Virus record (IMG/VR): IMGVR_UViG_3300043449_000169
Location: 1-35,416 of that record
Length of the DNA stretch: 35,416 nucleotides
Strand: one strand, 5' to 3'
Origin: a virus
A program made the position numbers and the translations under genes. Positions 3,222 to 35,416 of this stretch are shown here, one piece after another. The notes under the pieces were generated by a model. The model was not told the origin of the DNA. It worked only from the letters and a program-made list of their open reading frames with translations, and searched no databases. How positions within the stretch are numbered: the first letter of the stretch is position 1; every line of letters begins with the position of its first letter.

Positions 3222-3713
3222 TTAATCCCTTGACTTATTATAATGGAATTCACCAAATTCTTTTAATGTAGCTAATTCATATGCTTTACTGGCAAGTTCT
3301 TTTGTTTCAAATAATCCTAAACAATATGATTTATTATTTGCCTTGTATCTAGCTCGCCACATATTTAAATGTTTTGATACACCTTTAAAGCCACTACTAT
3401 TTTGTGATGTAATTTTTCTGTTTCTGGCATTTTCAACATCATTGGCTAGTCTTAAATTATTAATTCTATTATCTGATGTGTTGCCATTAATGTGGTCAAT
3501 TTTACTTTTTGGAAATTCACCATATTTATAAAGCCATGCTAATCTATGACCAGCATATATTTTATATTTTATTTGTATTCTAATATAACCTTCATGATGA
3601 ACTGTACCAGCAACTTCTCCAACCTTGCGTTGATTATTAGATTTTAATCTAAAAAACAATCCAGTCGTTTCATCATAATTTAATAATTCTTTTAATTCAC
3701 TTTGTGTAATCAT
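3222..3713 (-). CDS. HNH homing-type endonuclease with AP2 domain
   Basis: A free-standing mobile nuclease of 163 residues. The HNH core is in the middle: HRLAWLYKYG, then KIDHINGNTSDNRINNLRLA. A C-terminal AP2-type DNA-binding domain follows, starting SSGFKGVSKHLNMWRARYK and containing ETKELASKAYELAT. This architecture is typical of phage homing endonucleases, which cut intron-less or intein-less alleles and spread by repair. It is visibly more AT-rich than its neighbours. It sits between two small packaging-region genes with its own AAGGGG ribosome binding site, consistent with a later insertion. Confidence 0.92.
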   Translation of the reverse strand: MITQSELKELLNYDETTGLFFRLKSNNQRKVGEVAGTVHHEGYIRIQIKYKIYAGHRLAWLYKYGEFPKSKIDHINGNTSDNRINNLRLANDVENARNRKITSQNSSGFKGVSKHLNMWRARYKANNKSYCLGLFETKELASKAYELATLKEFGEFHYNKSRD

Positions 3714-3723
3714 ATTAACCCCT

Positions 3724-3807
3724 TTAGTTAATAGCCTTATTGAATGTATTGGCAGGATAGTAAGGTTCTATCTTTTCGGTCGCTAAACCTAGCCATACAA
3801 ATTTAAT
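3724..3807 (-). CDS. Possible 27-residue peptide, non-canonical start
   Basis: Between the HNH gene and the 3803-4183 gene there is an open frame that reads like protein (KFVWLGLATEKIEPYYP, then ANTFNKAIN). It has no ATG, GTG or TTG; the only candidate start is ATT, overlapping the upstream stop. It could be a coupled gene with a rare start, or a relic left by the HNH insertion. In another frame there is an 18-residue ATG frame with no visible merit. Treat as unproven. Confidence 0.25.
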   Translation of the reverse strand: MKFVWLGLATEKIEPYYPANTFNKAIN

Positions 3808-4183
3808 CTGTCATTGGATTTTCAAATTCTTTTTTCTCCCAAACACTACATAGTCTACTGTTATGGCAAATTAATTCAAGTTTTACGCAATATCCTCTCT
3901 GAGCTTGACCATCATACAGGTCGTACTTGTTTAGTGGAATGGATTCCATAGCCTCAAACATTTCGGGAGTATTGTCGTAGTATTCGCAGTTACCGCATCG
4001 TTGACGCTTGGCTTCTGCCGGTGTGATTCGGAACATCTTAGCCATCTTTGCCCAGTATTCTGTGTTAGGCAAACTTGGGTTCATAGCTCCAAGAGAATAG
4101 TTATCAATGGCATTCTTGGTGTTGTCAGCAATCTCTTTGGTTGTGCCAATAGTAGTTTTTGTGTCTAACAAACCTTTTGCCAT
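3803..4183 (-). CDS. Cysteine-containing conserved phage protein
   Basis: A 126-residue protein of unknown function and first gene of the minus-strand packaging operon. The middle has RCGNCEYYDN. The C-terminal third has RGYCVKLELICHNSRLC, then SVWEKK, giving five cysteines able to bind metal or an Fe-S cluster. I recall a similar CxxC...C...C layout in aquatic-phage proteins, without a known role. I chose the second ATG: AGGGA then lies 6 bases upstream, whereas it abuts the first ATG at 4189. It is preceded by a structured leader and a good promoter. Confidence 0.7.
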   Translation of the reverse strand: MAKGLLDTKTTIGTTKEIADNTKNAIDNYSLGAMNPSLPNTEYWAKMAKMFRITPAEAKRQRCGNCEYYDNTPEMFEAMESIPLNKYDLYDGQAQRGYCVKLELICHNSRLCSVWEKKEFENPMTD

Positions 4184-4328
4184 AGTCATTCCCTAAAAAA
4201 TAGGAGGTTCTCGCAACTAGACTACCTCGGAGTCTACCCTATCACGTCTGAGGGGCTGTGATTGCTTTCTAGCGATGTACTGTCGCTGGAATAAAAAAGT
4301 AATGCAAAATCGCACTACTATAAATCGT
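4184..4328 (-). ncRNA. Structured 5' leader of packaging operon (candidate cis-RNA)
   Basis: About 145 untranslated bases between a predicted transcription start and the first packaging gene. Three successive hairpins are visible, in minus-strand order: AGCGA/TCGCT (4283-4287 with 4271-4275), ATCAC/GTGAT (4258-4262 with 4241-4245) and TAGACT/AGTCTA (4231-4236 with 4218-4223). The second and third loops carry CCTC and GAGG, which could kiss. An outer helix ATAGG/CCTAT (4238-4242 with 4200-4204) encloses the third hairpin and is followed by a run of U just before the AGGGA ribosome binding site. This outer helix competes with the second hairpin. I could not match it to a known riboswitch class. 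Confidence 0.45.
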
Positions 4329-8150: not shown

Positions 8151-8310
8151 TAAACACAGCCTTTACTAAAATATCCATGTAAGCAGGAATCGTAAACTTG
8201 CCGGACTCGTACTTGGCAATGCTGTCCCTAGTCTTAAACAACTTAGTGCCAAACTCTTTCTGTGATAATCCTGTTTTACTACGTAGTTCTTTTAACTCTG
8301 TGTGTGTCAT
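8134..8310 (-). CDS. Mini XRE-family transcription regulator
   Basis: 58 residues, almost only a helix-turn-helix: ELKELRSKTGLSQKEFGTKL, then FKTRDSIAKYESGKFTIP. The SQKEFG, IAKYESG pattern is that of Cro/CI (XRE) domains. No dimerisation or cleavage domain is present, so it is Cro-like rather than a cleavable repressor. It has its own promoter and overlaps the start of the DpdA-like gene by 17 bases. It may control that operon, itself, or the palindromes around pqqA (inference). Confidence 0.8.
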   Translation of the reverse strand: MTHTELKELRSKTGLSQKEFGTKLFKTRDSIAKYESGKFTIPAYMDILVKAVFSENNA

Positions 8311-9250: not shown

Positions 9251-10081
9251 TTAATCACCACAGAAACATTCTATTGAGTCATCATCTAGCAATGATAACT
9301 GACTAGCATTGTTTTTTATTAATTGTGAATAACTTGGTCTATCTATTCTAAATAACGCTCCAGTTCCAGGACCGCTAATATCAAATGCTAACTTTTCCAT
9401 GTTTGCCCACCAAATTGCTTTTTCTGGATTCATTTGAATAATAGATTTAATCTTTCCTTCAGCTTTTAAATAACATAAATCACAATTACCTAATGGCGTA
9501 ACTCCATTAATGTTAGGTAACTTAAGATCAAACTTTTGCTGTTTCCAAAAATTACCAACAATCTCTTTTGTTACTTCATCATTAGCTAATGGGCAAACTG
9601 GTTTTTCTCCTTTGCTGTCACCCTTTAATCTTATGGCTCGGTGCATTTCATCAGCTCTTATGCCAACAAACGATTGCCATTCTGTCCATCCAGTAGATTT
9701 AATGTATCTTGATACGGCTCTAATCTTTAATTCTGCTGTGCAAGATTTATTTCTAGGATTAGGAACTATTCCACGCTTTCTAATTAAAGCCTCAAAAGGC
9801 TCACCATTACGACTAGCTGTTGTGTAATCAACGACCGCAAACTTAATCTCTGCATCACGATACTCAAGCCATACAATAGGTACATTCCAATTTATAGAGC
9901 AATCATGCACAAACTTTAATGTGGCTTCTTCTTCTTTTCCTGTGTTAGCAAAACAAACAATGGCTTCTGAAGGCAATTTACCGCCATGAGCTTCCAATAC
10001 TTTCCACAACATATAGGCTGATGTTCTGCCACCACTAAAACTGATTATTGTTGGCTCTGTAATAAAATATGGATTACGCAT
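9251..10081 (-). CDS. PAPS-reductase-like PP-loop protein
   Basis: 276 residues of the adenine nucleotide alpha-hydrolase superfamily. The PP-loop SGGRTSAYM is at residues 16-24, followed by VCFANTGKEE and IVWLEYRDAE. Cysteines occur in NKSCTAELK, GNCDLCYLK and the terminal ECFCG, and may bind a cluster as in DndC-type relatives. Phage members are often annotated as phosphoadenosine phosphosulfate reductase, but sulfate reduction is unlikely. A role in nucleic-acid modification next to the methylases and DpdA-like gene is an inference. It overlaps the upstream gene by 8 bases. Confidence 0.8.
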   Translation of the reverse strand: MRNPYFITEPTIISFSGGRTSAYMLWKVLEAHGGKLPSEAIVCFANTGKEEEATLKFVHDCSINWNVPIVWLEYRDAEIKFAVVDYTTASRNGEPFEALIRKRGIVPNPRNKSCTAELKIRAVSRYIKSTGWTEWQSFVGIRADEMHRAIRLKGDSKGEKPVCPLANDEVTKEIVGNFWKQQKFDLKLPNINGVTPLGNCDLCYLKAEGKIKSIIQMNPEKAIWWANMEKLAFDISGPGTGALFRIDRPSYSQLIKNNASQLSLLDDDSIECFCGD

Positions 10082-10544
10082 AATTTTCCCCTAGCACTTC
10101 TCTTGCAGCAGTAACTGAAGTTTCCGGAAAGTTTTGTGGATTTTTTAAAATACGTTTAGCCCAGGCATGGTAGTCTGTTTTTGGTTTTAATCGCTCATGT
10201 ACATATAAAGCCAACTTATCAGCGTGAGCCTTATTGCTTTCATGGTCTACTGGTGCAGGTAGTGCCTTAAAGTCTTGTATGTTACTTGTTACGCAATGCT
10301 TTAAAAACTCATCGCAATTAGGTGCATATTGGTATTTGGCTTCTAATCCAGCTTTAATACGCTCTGCACTAATGCCGGCAAGTTCTGATGACCAAGTAGC
10401 CTTTGCGTTTGCAATACCAACATCTTCACCAGCATCGTTAACTTGACCTATCTTGAACTTATCAAAAAAGTTATTACCAAAACGACCATGTAGTCGCATA
10501 AAAATACGTTCAACCCATTCTGCTGGCAAATTAAAATTCTGCAT
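10074..10544 (-). CDS. Helicase-loader-like replication protein (lambda P type)
   Basis: 156 residues from an ATG preceded by GGAG. Features are LPAEWVERIFMRLHGRFGNN, a central LAGISAERIKAGLEAKYQ, then APNCDEFLKHC. This W...L...I..GL...(P)..EF...C pattern resembles lambda P-like replication proteins, which recruit the host DnaB helicase to the origin. It directly follows the replication initiation gene with a 14-base overlap, the O-P order of lambdoid phages. The similarity is moderate. Confidence 0.6.
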   Translation of the reverse strand: MQNFNLPAEWVERIFMRLHGRFGNNFFDKFKIGQVNDAGEDVGIANAKATWSSELAGISAERIKAGLEAKYQYAPNCDEFLKHCVTSNIQDFKALPAPVDHESNKAHADKLALYVHERLKPKTDYHAWAKRILKNPQNFPETSVTAAREVLGENYA

Positions 10545-11289
10545 GATTATCTCCAACTAATTTTATGTGAGCAGTTTGTTCTGCAATGTACTGTGGTTTA
10601 AATACTGATAGTGCTGCATTTAATGTTGATGCTTGCTTATCTATACGTCTAGCCTCTTGCCTTCTTACCCAATTGCGCCATGTAGCAAACCAATCTGTCT
10701 TAACTGCAGCAGAACCACTTTTGCTAATCCAATAGTCTTTGAATGTATCAGCTACAGATTGAACATTAAGTTCTGGTCGTTCTGTTTGGCAGAATTTTAT
10801 ATATTCTTCAGGTATTACCCAGTCTTGTGAAAGGCGAGAGCCTTTAGTAGTTTCTTTCTTTTCTTTCTTATCTATTCTAATCTCTTCTGTTCTCTTCTCT
10901 TCTCTTACCTCGGACATTCTAGGGACACTATCGGGAGTTACAAGTGAGGCTGATAACCTCTTGTTATCTCTAATAATTTGTTGCGTGTACTCATCAGCTC
11001 TAGTTGCCATCTTTAAACAGGTAATAATTCCCTTTGTATTTTCAAATAAGCCAATTTCAACCATAAATGTCATAATGTGCTGCACTAATTCTGTGCTTAA
11101 TTTAAAATCATCAGCAATTAATTCAGCATCATGTTCTAGTTCAAAAGTTAGATTATGCTTTTCAACATTGCGAGCTATTAACTCTAAGCAATACCAATAT
11201 ATGCCGTAGCCTTGTGCGCCATACTTTAATCTTAGTTTTTTTAACTTAGCATCATTACTTGCGTCTGAATCGTGTTTAAACCATTTCAT
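10531..11289 (-). CDS. Replication initiation protein (DUF4373-like)
   Basis: 252 residues from the ATG behind GGAG. The N-terminal domain, MKWFKHDSDASNDAKLKKLR, then YGAQGYGIYWYCLELIAR, matches the DUF4373-type winged helix of phage and plasmid initiators. The linker is highly charged (REEKRTEEIRIDKKEKKE). The C-terminal part, ADTFKDYWISKSGSAAVKTD and FATWRNWVRRQE, resembles DnaT/O-type C-terminal segments. It likely binds the phage origin and hands over to the downstream loader. It is preceded by an unusual leader with alternative hairpins. Confidence 0.75.
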   Translation of the reverse strand: MKWFKHDSDASNDAKLKKLRLKYGAQGYGIYWYCLELIARNVEKHNLTFELEHDAELIADDFKLSTELVQHIMTFMVEIGLFENTKGIITCLKMATRADEYTQQIIRDNKRLSASLVTPDSVPRMSEVREEKRTEEIRIDKKEKKETTKGSRLSQDWVIPEEYIKFCQTERPELNVQSVADTFKDYWISKSGSAAVKTDWFATWRNWVRRQEARRIDKQASTLNAALSVFKPQYIAEQTAHIKLVGDNHAEF

Positions 11290-11297
11290 TTGTTTTC

Positions 11298-11403
11298 TCC
11301 AAAAAAAAACCTTAGACAACACTCTCATCTTTTTTAGGGATGTTGACGGACTGGCGGATACCAGCAGAGTGTTGACTAAGGTTTATCCGATGTTCACCGT
11401 CAA
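11298..11403 (-). promoter_or_regulatory. Attenuator-like leader upstream of replication genes
   Basis: On the minus strand, arms at 11366-11384 and 11307-11325 form a 19-position helix with a single mismatch. It closes a 40-base loop and runs into nine Us immediately before the GGAG ribosome binding site of the replication gene. Two other helices, TTGACGG/CCGTCAA (11397-11403 with 11343-11349) and CGGATA/TATCCG (11384-11389 with 11355-11360), cross the first in order and cannot form with it except as a pseudoknot. This is the layout of a terminator/antiterminator switch. It could instead be an origin structure or the terminator of the VRR-NUC transcript. Confidence 0.55.
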
Positions 11404-11422
11404 GTGATAGCGTTACTTTAAA

Positions 11423-11782
11423 CTAACTTTTACCTTCTTGCAAGTAATTTGTTATTGCAGTTTTAGCTTCTTCAAAACCAAAGCATACAACCGGCAAGTA
11501 GTTCATTGAATTAGCTGCTGCCATAAACTCTTTCTGGCTATCTGACACTTTTCCAGACTTTGCCTTCATCTCAATAAACATTCCGTGATACTTACTATTA
11601 GGAATCATTAAGAATAGGTCGCTGACTCCGGCAAGCACTCCTTCTGCCTTTAAATTGACTGCCGTAACTATGTGCCGTGATCCACCGTTAGGAATTGCCC
11701 ATAGGTGATACTTGTATTGCTTGTATTGCATTCTGAACCAGGTGATTAGCATGACCTGCTCTTGATGTTCTGATACTTTCAT
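11423..11782 (-). CDS. VRR-NUC domain nuclease
   Basis: A 119-residue stand-alone VRR-NUC (PD-D/EXK superfamily) protein. Visible motifs are SEHQEQVMLITWFRMQY with the first Glu, AIPNGGSRH, LAGVSDLFLM with the catalytic Asp, and FIEMKAKSGKVSDSQKEF with the E-x-K core. Such phage enzymes are thought to process branched or replicating DNA. It is the first minus-strand gene after the divergent promoter region. Confidence 0.93.
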   Translation of the reverse strand: MKVSEHQEQVMLITWFRMQYKQYKYHLWAIPNGGSRHIVTAVNLKAEGVLAGVSDLFLMIPNSKYHGMFIEMKAKSGKVSDSQKEFMAAANSMNYLPVVCFGFEEAKTAITNYLQEGKS

Positions 11783-34738: not shown

Positions 34739-35416
34739 TTAATCTTCATAATCTACTATATCTTGTGACTCTGCCTTTATACCACTTTTTACCATTTCAT
34801 TCAAGCTAGTAATAGCTGACATGATTGCGTTAAGTTGCTCTGTCTGTAGTTTACCGTCTGTTGCCTGTGTCTTCATCTCTAGTTCCATTTGTTTCAATTG
34901 CAGCTCAGCTTCCTTGATACGATATTCACCCTCAAGTTGCATTTGTTTTTGTTGGAACTCTAATTCTTTACGAGCGTTATCTACCTGCATTTGCTCACGG
35001 TCTAGTTGTAGCTTGGCTTGAGAAGTCTGTGCAGATAATTGAGCCTTCTGTTCTTCTACCTTGGCATATAACTGTGCTGCCTCAGACGTTGGATCAGCAG
35101 GTGGCTGTGATGCCTGTTGCATTATTTGCTGCTCAACCTCTGGTGTAATGTCATTAATGAATGATGTTGTGTCTTTAAAGCCAGCCATCTCAATCATGCG
35201 ACCAAGTGTGCTGCGGTATTGCGTTACAGTCACCAATGGGTTGTTAGCACCGTACTTGCCGATGATTTCTTCCTGTTTAGCCATAATCATTTGCAACATA
35301 GCAATCTGCTCTTGGCGGTTACCGTTACCCAATCCTACGTTGATTGACACATCATATAGGTCAGACCACTCACGAGGGTCATAAGATACCCATTTGCCAC
35401 GCATACGGATTGTCTT
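34739..35416 (-). CDS. Portal protein, C-terminal part (runs off right edge)
   Basis: 225 residues open from the right edge to the stop. The frame begins before the first ATG of the window (KTIRMRGKWVSYDPREW), so the true start is elsewhere: the N-terminal part is at 1-1103. KWVSYDPREWSDLYDVSINV and GLGNGNRQEQIAMLQMIMAK are characteristic of this portal family. The last third is a long Gln/Lys/Glu coiled coil (QAKLQLDREQMQVDNARKEL), the barrel or crown part. Confidence 0.88.
   Translation of the reverse strand, partial: KTIRMRGKWVSYDPREWSDLYDVSINVGLGNGNRQEQIAMLQMIMAKQEEIIGKYGANNPLVTVTQYRSTLGRMIEMAGFKDTTSFINDITPEVEQQIMQQASQPPADPTSEAAQLYAKVEEQKAQLSAQTSQAKLQLDREQMQVDNARKELEFQQKQMQLEGEYRIKEAELQLKQMELEMKTQATDGKLQTEQLNAIMSAITSLNEMVKSGIKAESQDIVDYED

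Follow-up and report, generated by a model that had tools for sequence, protein, structure and literature searches.

A compact leader ahead of phage replication genes, probably an RNA attenuator that is antisense and target in one molecule

The locus analysed here raises the question of what a short stretch of interlocking inverted repeats does directly ahead of a phage replication gene, and whether it does so as RNA or as DNA. The stretch lies in a virus record of 35,416 bases, the whole of which was analysed and is called the window below. Because the portal family phrog_1216 was matched at both ends of the window, with the portal protein split between 1-1112 and 34739-35416 (family positions 11-390 and 522-692), the record suggests a complete, circularly permuted genome. 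The gene in question (10531-11289, minus strand) is the first of its operon and encodes a phage replication protein with a Lin1244_N/DUF4373 domain (PF14297, 2.5e-14; phrog_2562, replication initiation protein, 2.7e-12). Its predicted start is the ATG at 11289, which was preferred over an in-frame ATG at 11328, inside the terminator stem described below, because the Lin1244_N domain begins near MKWFKHDS at 11289. The gene upstream (11423-11782, minus strand) encodes a VRR-NUC nuclease (PF08774, 8.9e-11), and the replication operon includes a phosphoadenosine phosphosulfate reductase-like gene (9251-10081, minus strand; phrog_424, 8.8e-47). Elsewhere in the window, an int-alpA RNA (RF02996, 40.8 bits) was located at 3734-3798 on the minus strand, a short distance ahead of an HNH endonuclease gene (3222-3713), while no integrase was found among the window proteins scanned. 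Several short inverted repeats seen by eye at 4300-4190 (minus strand), upstream of the gene at 3803-4189, may be another structured leader.

The results showed an RNA element of about 108 nt on the minus strand, which is also the strand of the gene, at about 11408-11301 and directly ahead of the replication gene, with six helices recovered from a comparison of 64 rows. It opens with a 5' hairpin, P0 (ATCAC-TTGACG-GTGA(A), 11393-11408), the loop of which displays a (TTGACGG, 11397-11403), the partner of a'. This is followed by b (CGGATA, 11384-11389), the partner of b', by c, the 5' strand of a terminator stem (11366-11383), and by a small hairpin, P2 (CTGG-TATCCG-CCAG, 11351-11364), the loop of which displays b' (TATCCG, 11355-11360). 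After these come a' (CCGTCAA, 11343-11349), which lies unpaired in the junction of the terminator domain, a third small hairpin, P4 (CATC-CCTAAAAAA-GATG, 11326-11342), and c', the 3' strand of the terminator stem (11308-11325), so that c to c' spans 76-78 nt and forms a C4-like core. The U-tract of the terminator (11301-11309, nine A on the plus strand) has about three residues inside the stem and six free by the pairing of the present analysis, and it runs into a Shine-Dalgarno GGAG (11297-11300) recognised from its sequence. P0, a/a', b/b', c/c', P2 and P4 are supported by the covariation of helices 1 to 6, respectively, together with exact complements at freely varying positions for a, arm complementarity for c and c', and sequence plus alignment for a' and b'.

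Much of this anatomy had been anticipated by the original prediction, which described a long helix with 18 of 19 positions paired (arms 11307-11325 and 11366-11384, 95% complementary), nine Us (11309-11301) just before the GGAG (11300-11297) of the replication initiator gene, and two further helices, TTGACGG 11403-11397 with CCGTCAA 11349-11343 and CGGATA 11389-11384 with TATCCG 11360-11355, that nest mutually and cross the long one; all three descriptions hold, on the minus strand. The span it gave, 11298-11403, is real, but the true start lies earlier, at 11408 on the minus strand, TTGACG being the loop of P0. The display hairpins, a promoter at the edge of the element and a likeness to C4/CI RNAs had escaped it. 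The folding energy of the 111-nt RNA was -34.6 kcal/mol in comparison to -23.0 +/- 3.4 for shuffled sequences (z = -3.4), and none of 200 shuffles did as well. A stable stem with a U-tract directly behind it, as in intrinsic terminators, is thus present in the element, although five T had been part of the pattern used to find its relatives.

To compare the element among phages, relatives were collected from IMG/VR in several ways. A search with the replication protein left 80 kept loci, several of which carry diverged leaders where TTGACGG/CCGTCAA and CGGATA/TATCCG are swapped for other complementary pairs. The exact arm AACCTTAGWCAACACTCT is present in 20 stretches, some of them before a different gene, and one of the 20 (L087) has none of the other parts. 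A degenerate pattern, in which the three central positions of loop a and those pairing with them could vary and the letters ATCRCTTG, GYGA, C, CAAC and TTTTT were fixed and are therefore uninformative, gave at least 69 distinct matches from 203 viral loci, the window itself included (L001). Among the matches listed, the free triplets of a and a' were exact complements in 62 of the 69 distinct viral matches in comparison to one of 117 matches of the same pattern in genome contigs, where chance would give 1 in 64. Five matches (L101, L134, L164, L192 and L197) had neither a/a' complementarity nor, on sight, any other feature and were dropped as spurious, while L138 and L146, in which a and a' are inexact complements that pair through G-U, were kept, and the 64 rows derived in this way from the 69 distinct matches listed were aligned with MAFFT.

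In this alignment, 95.6% of 2673 cells over 42 pairs were paired, in comparison to 75.4% for shuffles and 33-44% for slid partners. Changes on both sides were seen in 33 of the 42 pairs, with 493 such cells in comparison to a shuffle mean of 115.1, and none of 500 shuffles reached 493, although many rows are related and the cells do not count as independent events. The percentage of paired cells was 94.7% for helix 1 (P0), where pair 4-13 is GC in 33 rows and AU in 31, and 100% for helix 2 (a/a'), where three of six pairs vary and always change on both sides. For helix 3 (b/b') it was 95.1%, with five of six pairs changed on both sides, and for helix 4 (c/c') 98.7%, with all 17 pairs so changed. 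Helix 6 (P4) reached 94.9% with three of four pairs changed on both sides, and helix 5 (P2) 77.6% with four of four, the latter percentage including rows of the CACC/GGTG type, in which MAFFT misaligns P2 by one position. RNAalifold with no structure given returned P0 and c/c', with double changes in 17 of 22 pairs. The covariation check on related leaders that had been proposed earlier therefore favours, ahead of the replication gene, a terminator and a second pairing that exclude each other, and relatives retaining a single helix, which had been named as grounds for giving up that reading, did not appear among the 64, in which the long helix and both crossing helices are all kept.

A covariance model built from the alignment (R1) scored the window at 100.6 bits and, when run with default filters on 57 source loci (E-values rough), added L035, L036 and the named record MW202462 (L324), all of which lie outside the search pattern. 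Their P0 stems differ, and a/a' and b/b' are, by eye, again complementary. The public annotation of MW202462 places a hypothetical protein antisense to the element (L324 817-1059), which is probably a false gene. There is one element per record in 30 long records, apart from three weak antisense echoes. An R1 search of 369 genomes of one class, limited to 10 scored candidates in each genome and with none of its positive controls recovered, gave no match and carries little weight; C4 was found in five of 143 genomes of that class.

The original prediction had offered an origin of replication as the main alternative. Taken more widely, the inverted repeats would work as DNA or single-stranded DNA in an origin or a recombination site. 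The element does adjoin a replication gene, and the sign of the GC skew changes near 11.5 kb, which is also the place where gene direction switches. A DNA origin should look alike on both strands, yet the alignment holds 106 G-U cells in comparison to nine A-C cells, and because of this imbalance the pairs are those of RNA from the minus strand; what is conserved is thus a minus-strand RNA and not a DNA origin. A promoter stands at a fixed distance, the element also occurs ahead of unrelated genes, and the U-tract is on one strand (a feature that the search pattern had itself required), all of which makes an origin or recombination site extremely improbable.

Taken as RNA, an element in which a pseudoknot-like topology is followed by a terminator could also be a ligand riboswitch or a protein-binding leader, with the crossing helices forming an aptamer whose occupancy sets termination. 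Such pockets need a conserved unpaired core, whereas the invariant columns of the alignment fall, with about one exception, in paired stretches or in letters fixed by the pattern, both crossing helices change sequence freely, and no Rfam riboswitch matched. The riboswitch reading is thus very unlikely; the earlier comparison with the build of riboswitches and attenuators stands for the attenuator and not for the ligand riboswitch, almost no unpaired base being invariant.

The two crossing pairs behave like matched codes. The 64 rows show at least 29 distinct combinations of a and b, drawn from ten a codes and 17 different b sequences. Over all pairs of rows the differences were similar, at 0.46 for a, 0.47 for b and 0.40 for c. 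Rows picked for like c stems make c look slow by construction, and elements with like promoters were used instead; among these, b differs by 0.26-0.33, c by 0.04-0.12 and the P4 hairpin, a plain stem, by 0.14-0.30. Fast change of a and b was considered as proof of selection and was rejected, the P4 hairpin differing nearly as much as b, and drift of pairs explains much of the excess of b over c without selection for new specificities.

The best sigma-70-type pair upstream of the element in the window is TTGCAA (11438-11443) and TAAAGT (11415-11420), both on the minus strand, with a spacer of 17 nt and 8 of 12 matches to the sigma-70-like pattern; its -10 ends 6 nt before the element, and the promoter overlaps or abuts the 3' end of the nuclease gene. 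In 56 of 64 rows, a gap of 5-7 nt separates the -10 of a sigma-70-like promoter from P0, and the mean promoter score was 8.06 of 12 in comparison to 4.72 for 3000 random 45-mers, from which transcription is predicted to start at about the first base of P0. For the full-length RNA the terminator fold was computed to be more stable than the alternative in all 64 rows, while for RNA cut after a' the fold with a/a' and b/b' was more stable than P0 plus P2, again in 64 of 64. By these energies, the early fold is able to hold termination back, and the late one to bring it about. In the computed best folds of the cut RNA, a/a' was present in 62 of 64 and both pairs in 34 of 64, so that in these models the early-fold argument appears weaker for b/b' than for a/a'.

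An element at the very start of an early transcript could in principle resemble the put RNA of phage HK022, whose 5' hairpins act on RNA polymerase so that later terminators are passed. The element carries its own terminator inside and has recognition pairs that vary in sequence, and we consider a put-like role highly improbable.

The reading that we favour, and which we hold to be probable though by no means certain, is that the element forms the 5' end of the early transcript of the replication operon and acts as an attenuator based on RNA-RNA pairing, in which antisense and target are parts of the same molecule. The comparison itself provides an intrinsic terminator (c/c' and the U-tract) and two recognition pairs crossing it, a/a' and b/b', which change in concert from phage to phage. 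Under this model, transcription would begin at P0, and nascent a and b, being made first, would pair with a' and b' and hold c in a loop; this early pairing in cis would delay the terminator, and the gene would be read. A part of the transcripts would terminate, and the released leader would show a' in its junction and b' in the loop of P2. Leader might accumulate from the many genomes present in a cell or from a resident relative with the same code, and it would pair in trans with a in the P0 loop and with b of a nascent leader, whose a' and b' would be left free, so that the terminator would form and synthesis of the replication protein would stop. Because P0 and P2 are themselves kept by compensating changes, a and b' seem to be offered to a partner molecule, and we infer that the released leader acts in trans on nascent copies of the same code. 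The succession of a and then b occurs once in the window, with no separate target copy.

The design has close parallels in known RNA systems. C4 RNA is processed at its 5' end by RNase P and acts in trans. With the Rfam C4 model (RF01695), slices of the window, L125 and L109 gave no match at E values as high as 10, nor did ten loci at E up to 1, while the positive controls P1 and P4 scored 68.8 and 74.9 bits; conversely, R1 gave only 7.4 bits for P1 C4 and 2.0 bits for P4 CI. Membership in the C4 family was therefore rejected, the element being below the gathering threshold and below Rfam detection. Other candidates were rejected as well: bglG-cis-reg reached 25.9 bits against a cut-off of 80, the match of freshwater-2 in the window was limited to the Shine-Dalgarno end, and miRNA models were weak. 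The earlier statement that no known class could be recognised overlooked the likeness to the P1 C4 and P4 CI RNAs.

That likeness is one of parts and their function. As in C4, directly behind the b' hairpin (P2) comes single-stranded a', which matches a target further upstream. In P1, a1 (TTGACAG) and b1 precede C4, and the core reads GCTGG-b'-CCAGTCTGTCAAC; in P1/P7 C4 (RF01695, RF03163) a hairpin with b' in its loop is likewise followed by a' ending in CAAC, and the targets a1 and b1 lie upstream on the same transcript, as they do in the element. The length of C4, about 77 nt (PMC5320573), is close to the 76-78 nt of the core. The order differs: C4 runs outer stem, tetraloop hairpin, b' hairpin, a', outer stem, whereas the element runs outer stem, b' hairpin, a', P4 hairpin, outer stem, so that the extra hairpin precedes the b' hairpin in C4 and follows a' in the element. 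C4 works through a2b2, close to the icd ribosome site, whereas the core of the element carries a U-tract and is a terminator.

In phage P4 (by Rfam, C4 at 74.9 bits, isrK at 60.8 and c4-a1b1 at 44.1, just under its cut-off of 46.7), a hairpin whose loop contains a1 comes first in the sequence; b1 and an intrinsic terminator are next, and behind them lie the CI core, with its b' hairpin and a', and a second target. The seqA/CI region of P4 (RF01695, RF01394) resembles the element in the 5' loop with a1, b1, the terminator, the b' hairpin followed by a' and the position before replication genes (DUF4373 in the window; DUF1376, DUF4373 and others elsewhere), with a in the P0 loop, b, and c/c' plus U-tract as the corresponding parts here. 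P4 spreads target, terminator and CI RNA as distinct pieces along about 300 nt and has the second target seqC downstream, whereas the element fuses them within about 108 nt and has neither a separate CI core after the terminator nor a seqC, and there is no similarity at the level of models. According to PMC4825925, the replication genes of P4 are shut off by premature termination when CI RNA pairs with seqA and seqC. The IsrK RNA of Salmonella Gifsy-1 (RF01394) is also a short leader that ends in an intrinsic terminator; as described in PMC4825925, this terminator is partly read through, and the short RNA works in trans on the long one. IsrK differs in that it turns on translation of an antirepressor operon and has no fused C4 core. 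In the plasmid antisense attenuators of pT181 and pIP501, RNA pairing sets termination before a replication initiator gene, with the antisense made from the opposite strand, whereas in the element the antisense would be the leader itself. In the genomic C4 loci L328 and L333, an intrinsic terminator was seen by eye between the a1b1 target and C4. The element has the parts of the C4/CI design fused and permuted, with the C4-like core itself serving as the terminator; it would work like the C4/CI family, and common descent is possible. No published description of the element was found in the literature searched, to which subscription papers mostly did not belong (cf. PMC5320573, PMC4825925, PMC2864571, PMC8198154, PMC12197685, PMC4936722).

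The main alternative to trans action is an attenuator that works in cis only, its exclusive folds being chosen by transcription speed, by ribosomes or by a phage or host protein, and its released leader having no trans role. The mutually exclusive folds on which it relies are well supported by the alignment and the energies, a second target is absent from the window, and the carrier phages look mostly non-integrating. What this account leaves unexplained is the display of a and b' in the loops of the covarying P0 and P2, the many matched codes and the C4/CI parallel. A further point comes from a second leader family (family B, the present one being family A), which stands ahead of the same replication genes in other phages and is unrelated to the element (L005 2876-3000 and L335-L371, for example L366 and L370). 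Among its 37 stretches, 20 are distinct, and in all 20 a run of 6-7 nt in the 5' part is the exact complement of a stretch inside the terminator hairpin, with four codes (GGACAAG, GGTCAAG, GGACTAG and GAGCAG). Computed folds of eight such leaders placed the terminator copy in the hairpin loop and the 5' copy in or beside a loop. Cis pairing between such loops would not break the terminator stem, which counts against the cis-only account. The first genes of families A and B agree at 88% or more over 60 residues in eight of 14, no locus with both families was found, and family B matched no Rfam family (best freshwater-2, 19.3 bits against a cut-off of 49.9). The principle common to the two families is that the start of the transcript is complementary to a loop of the terminator domain, and because two folds share it we rank the trans model above the cis-only attenuator, which we consider rather unlikely. 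In L059, L063 and L069, more leaders with seemingly complementary loops were seen by eye before the replication gene, for example GTGTAAGC/GCTTACAC in L069.

As to the phages that carry the element, the first genes behind it encode DUF4373, DUF1376 and no-Pfam proteins, a methylase-helicase, and HNH and GIY-YIG endonucleases (20 first genes scanned, picked as different; 12 with a family at E 0.001 or better). Our reading of these neighbourhoods is a promoter-leader cassette that would head the replication operon, with an endonuclease gene sometimes inserted behind it. Neither a tyrosine nor a serine recombinase was found in 27 of 30 long carrier records, some of which may be incomplete (tyrosine in one, serine in two), a ParA-type ATPase (PF13614) in none of the 30, and no recombinase among those frames of the window that were scanned with PHROGs. 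Because most long carrier contigs are thus without recombinases, immunity of the lysogenic kind may not apply to the carriers. HTH_3 was matched in 13 of the 30 carrier contigs at E 0.001 or better, in two of them above the cut-off, so that a Cro-like repressor protein in carriers is possible. One of the 13 is a 67-aa frame of the window (8197-8295, minus strand) in the same operon as the replication gene, with 22.2 bits, below the cut-off of 23, and it is possibly a small Cro-like regulator.

RNA immunity of the C4/CI type is familiar from a few temperate phages and satellites. Here, a compact C4/CI-like form, invisible to Rfam, is common in uncultured phages mostly without a recognisable recombinase and heads the replication operon as a single copy. 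We suggest, tentatively and as one conceivable role, that such self-recognising leaders let phages that are largely non-lysogenic check quorum or copy number, in that leader released from one genome would silence the replication genes of every genome with a matching code, and that at least two unrelated folds have converged on it. If this is true, virulent phages would have a means of superinfection exclusion, or of timing replication, that is coded in RNA. The paired codes provide natural variants by which the question of cis or trans action is directly testable, the compact one-piece form would be an easy model for RNA-controlled termination, and the codes could predict mutual exclusion among phages.
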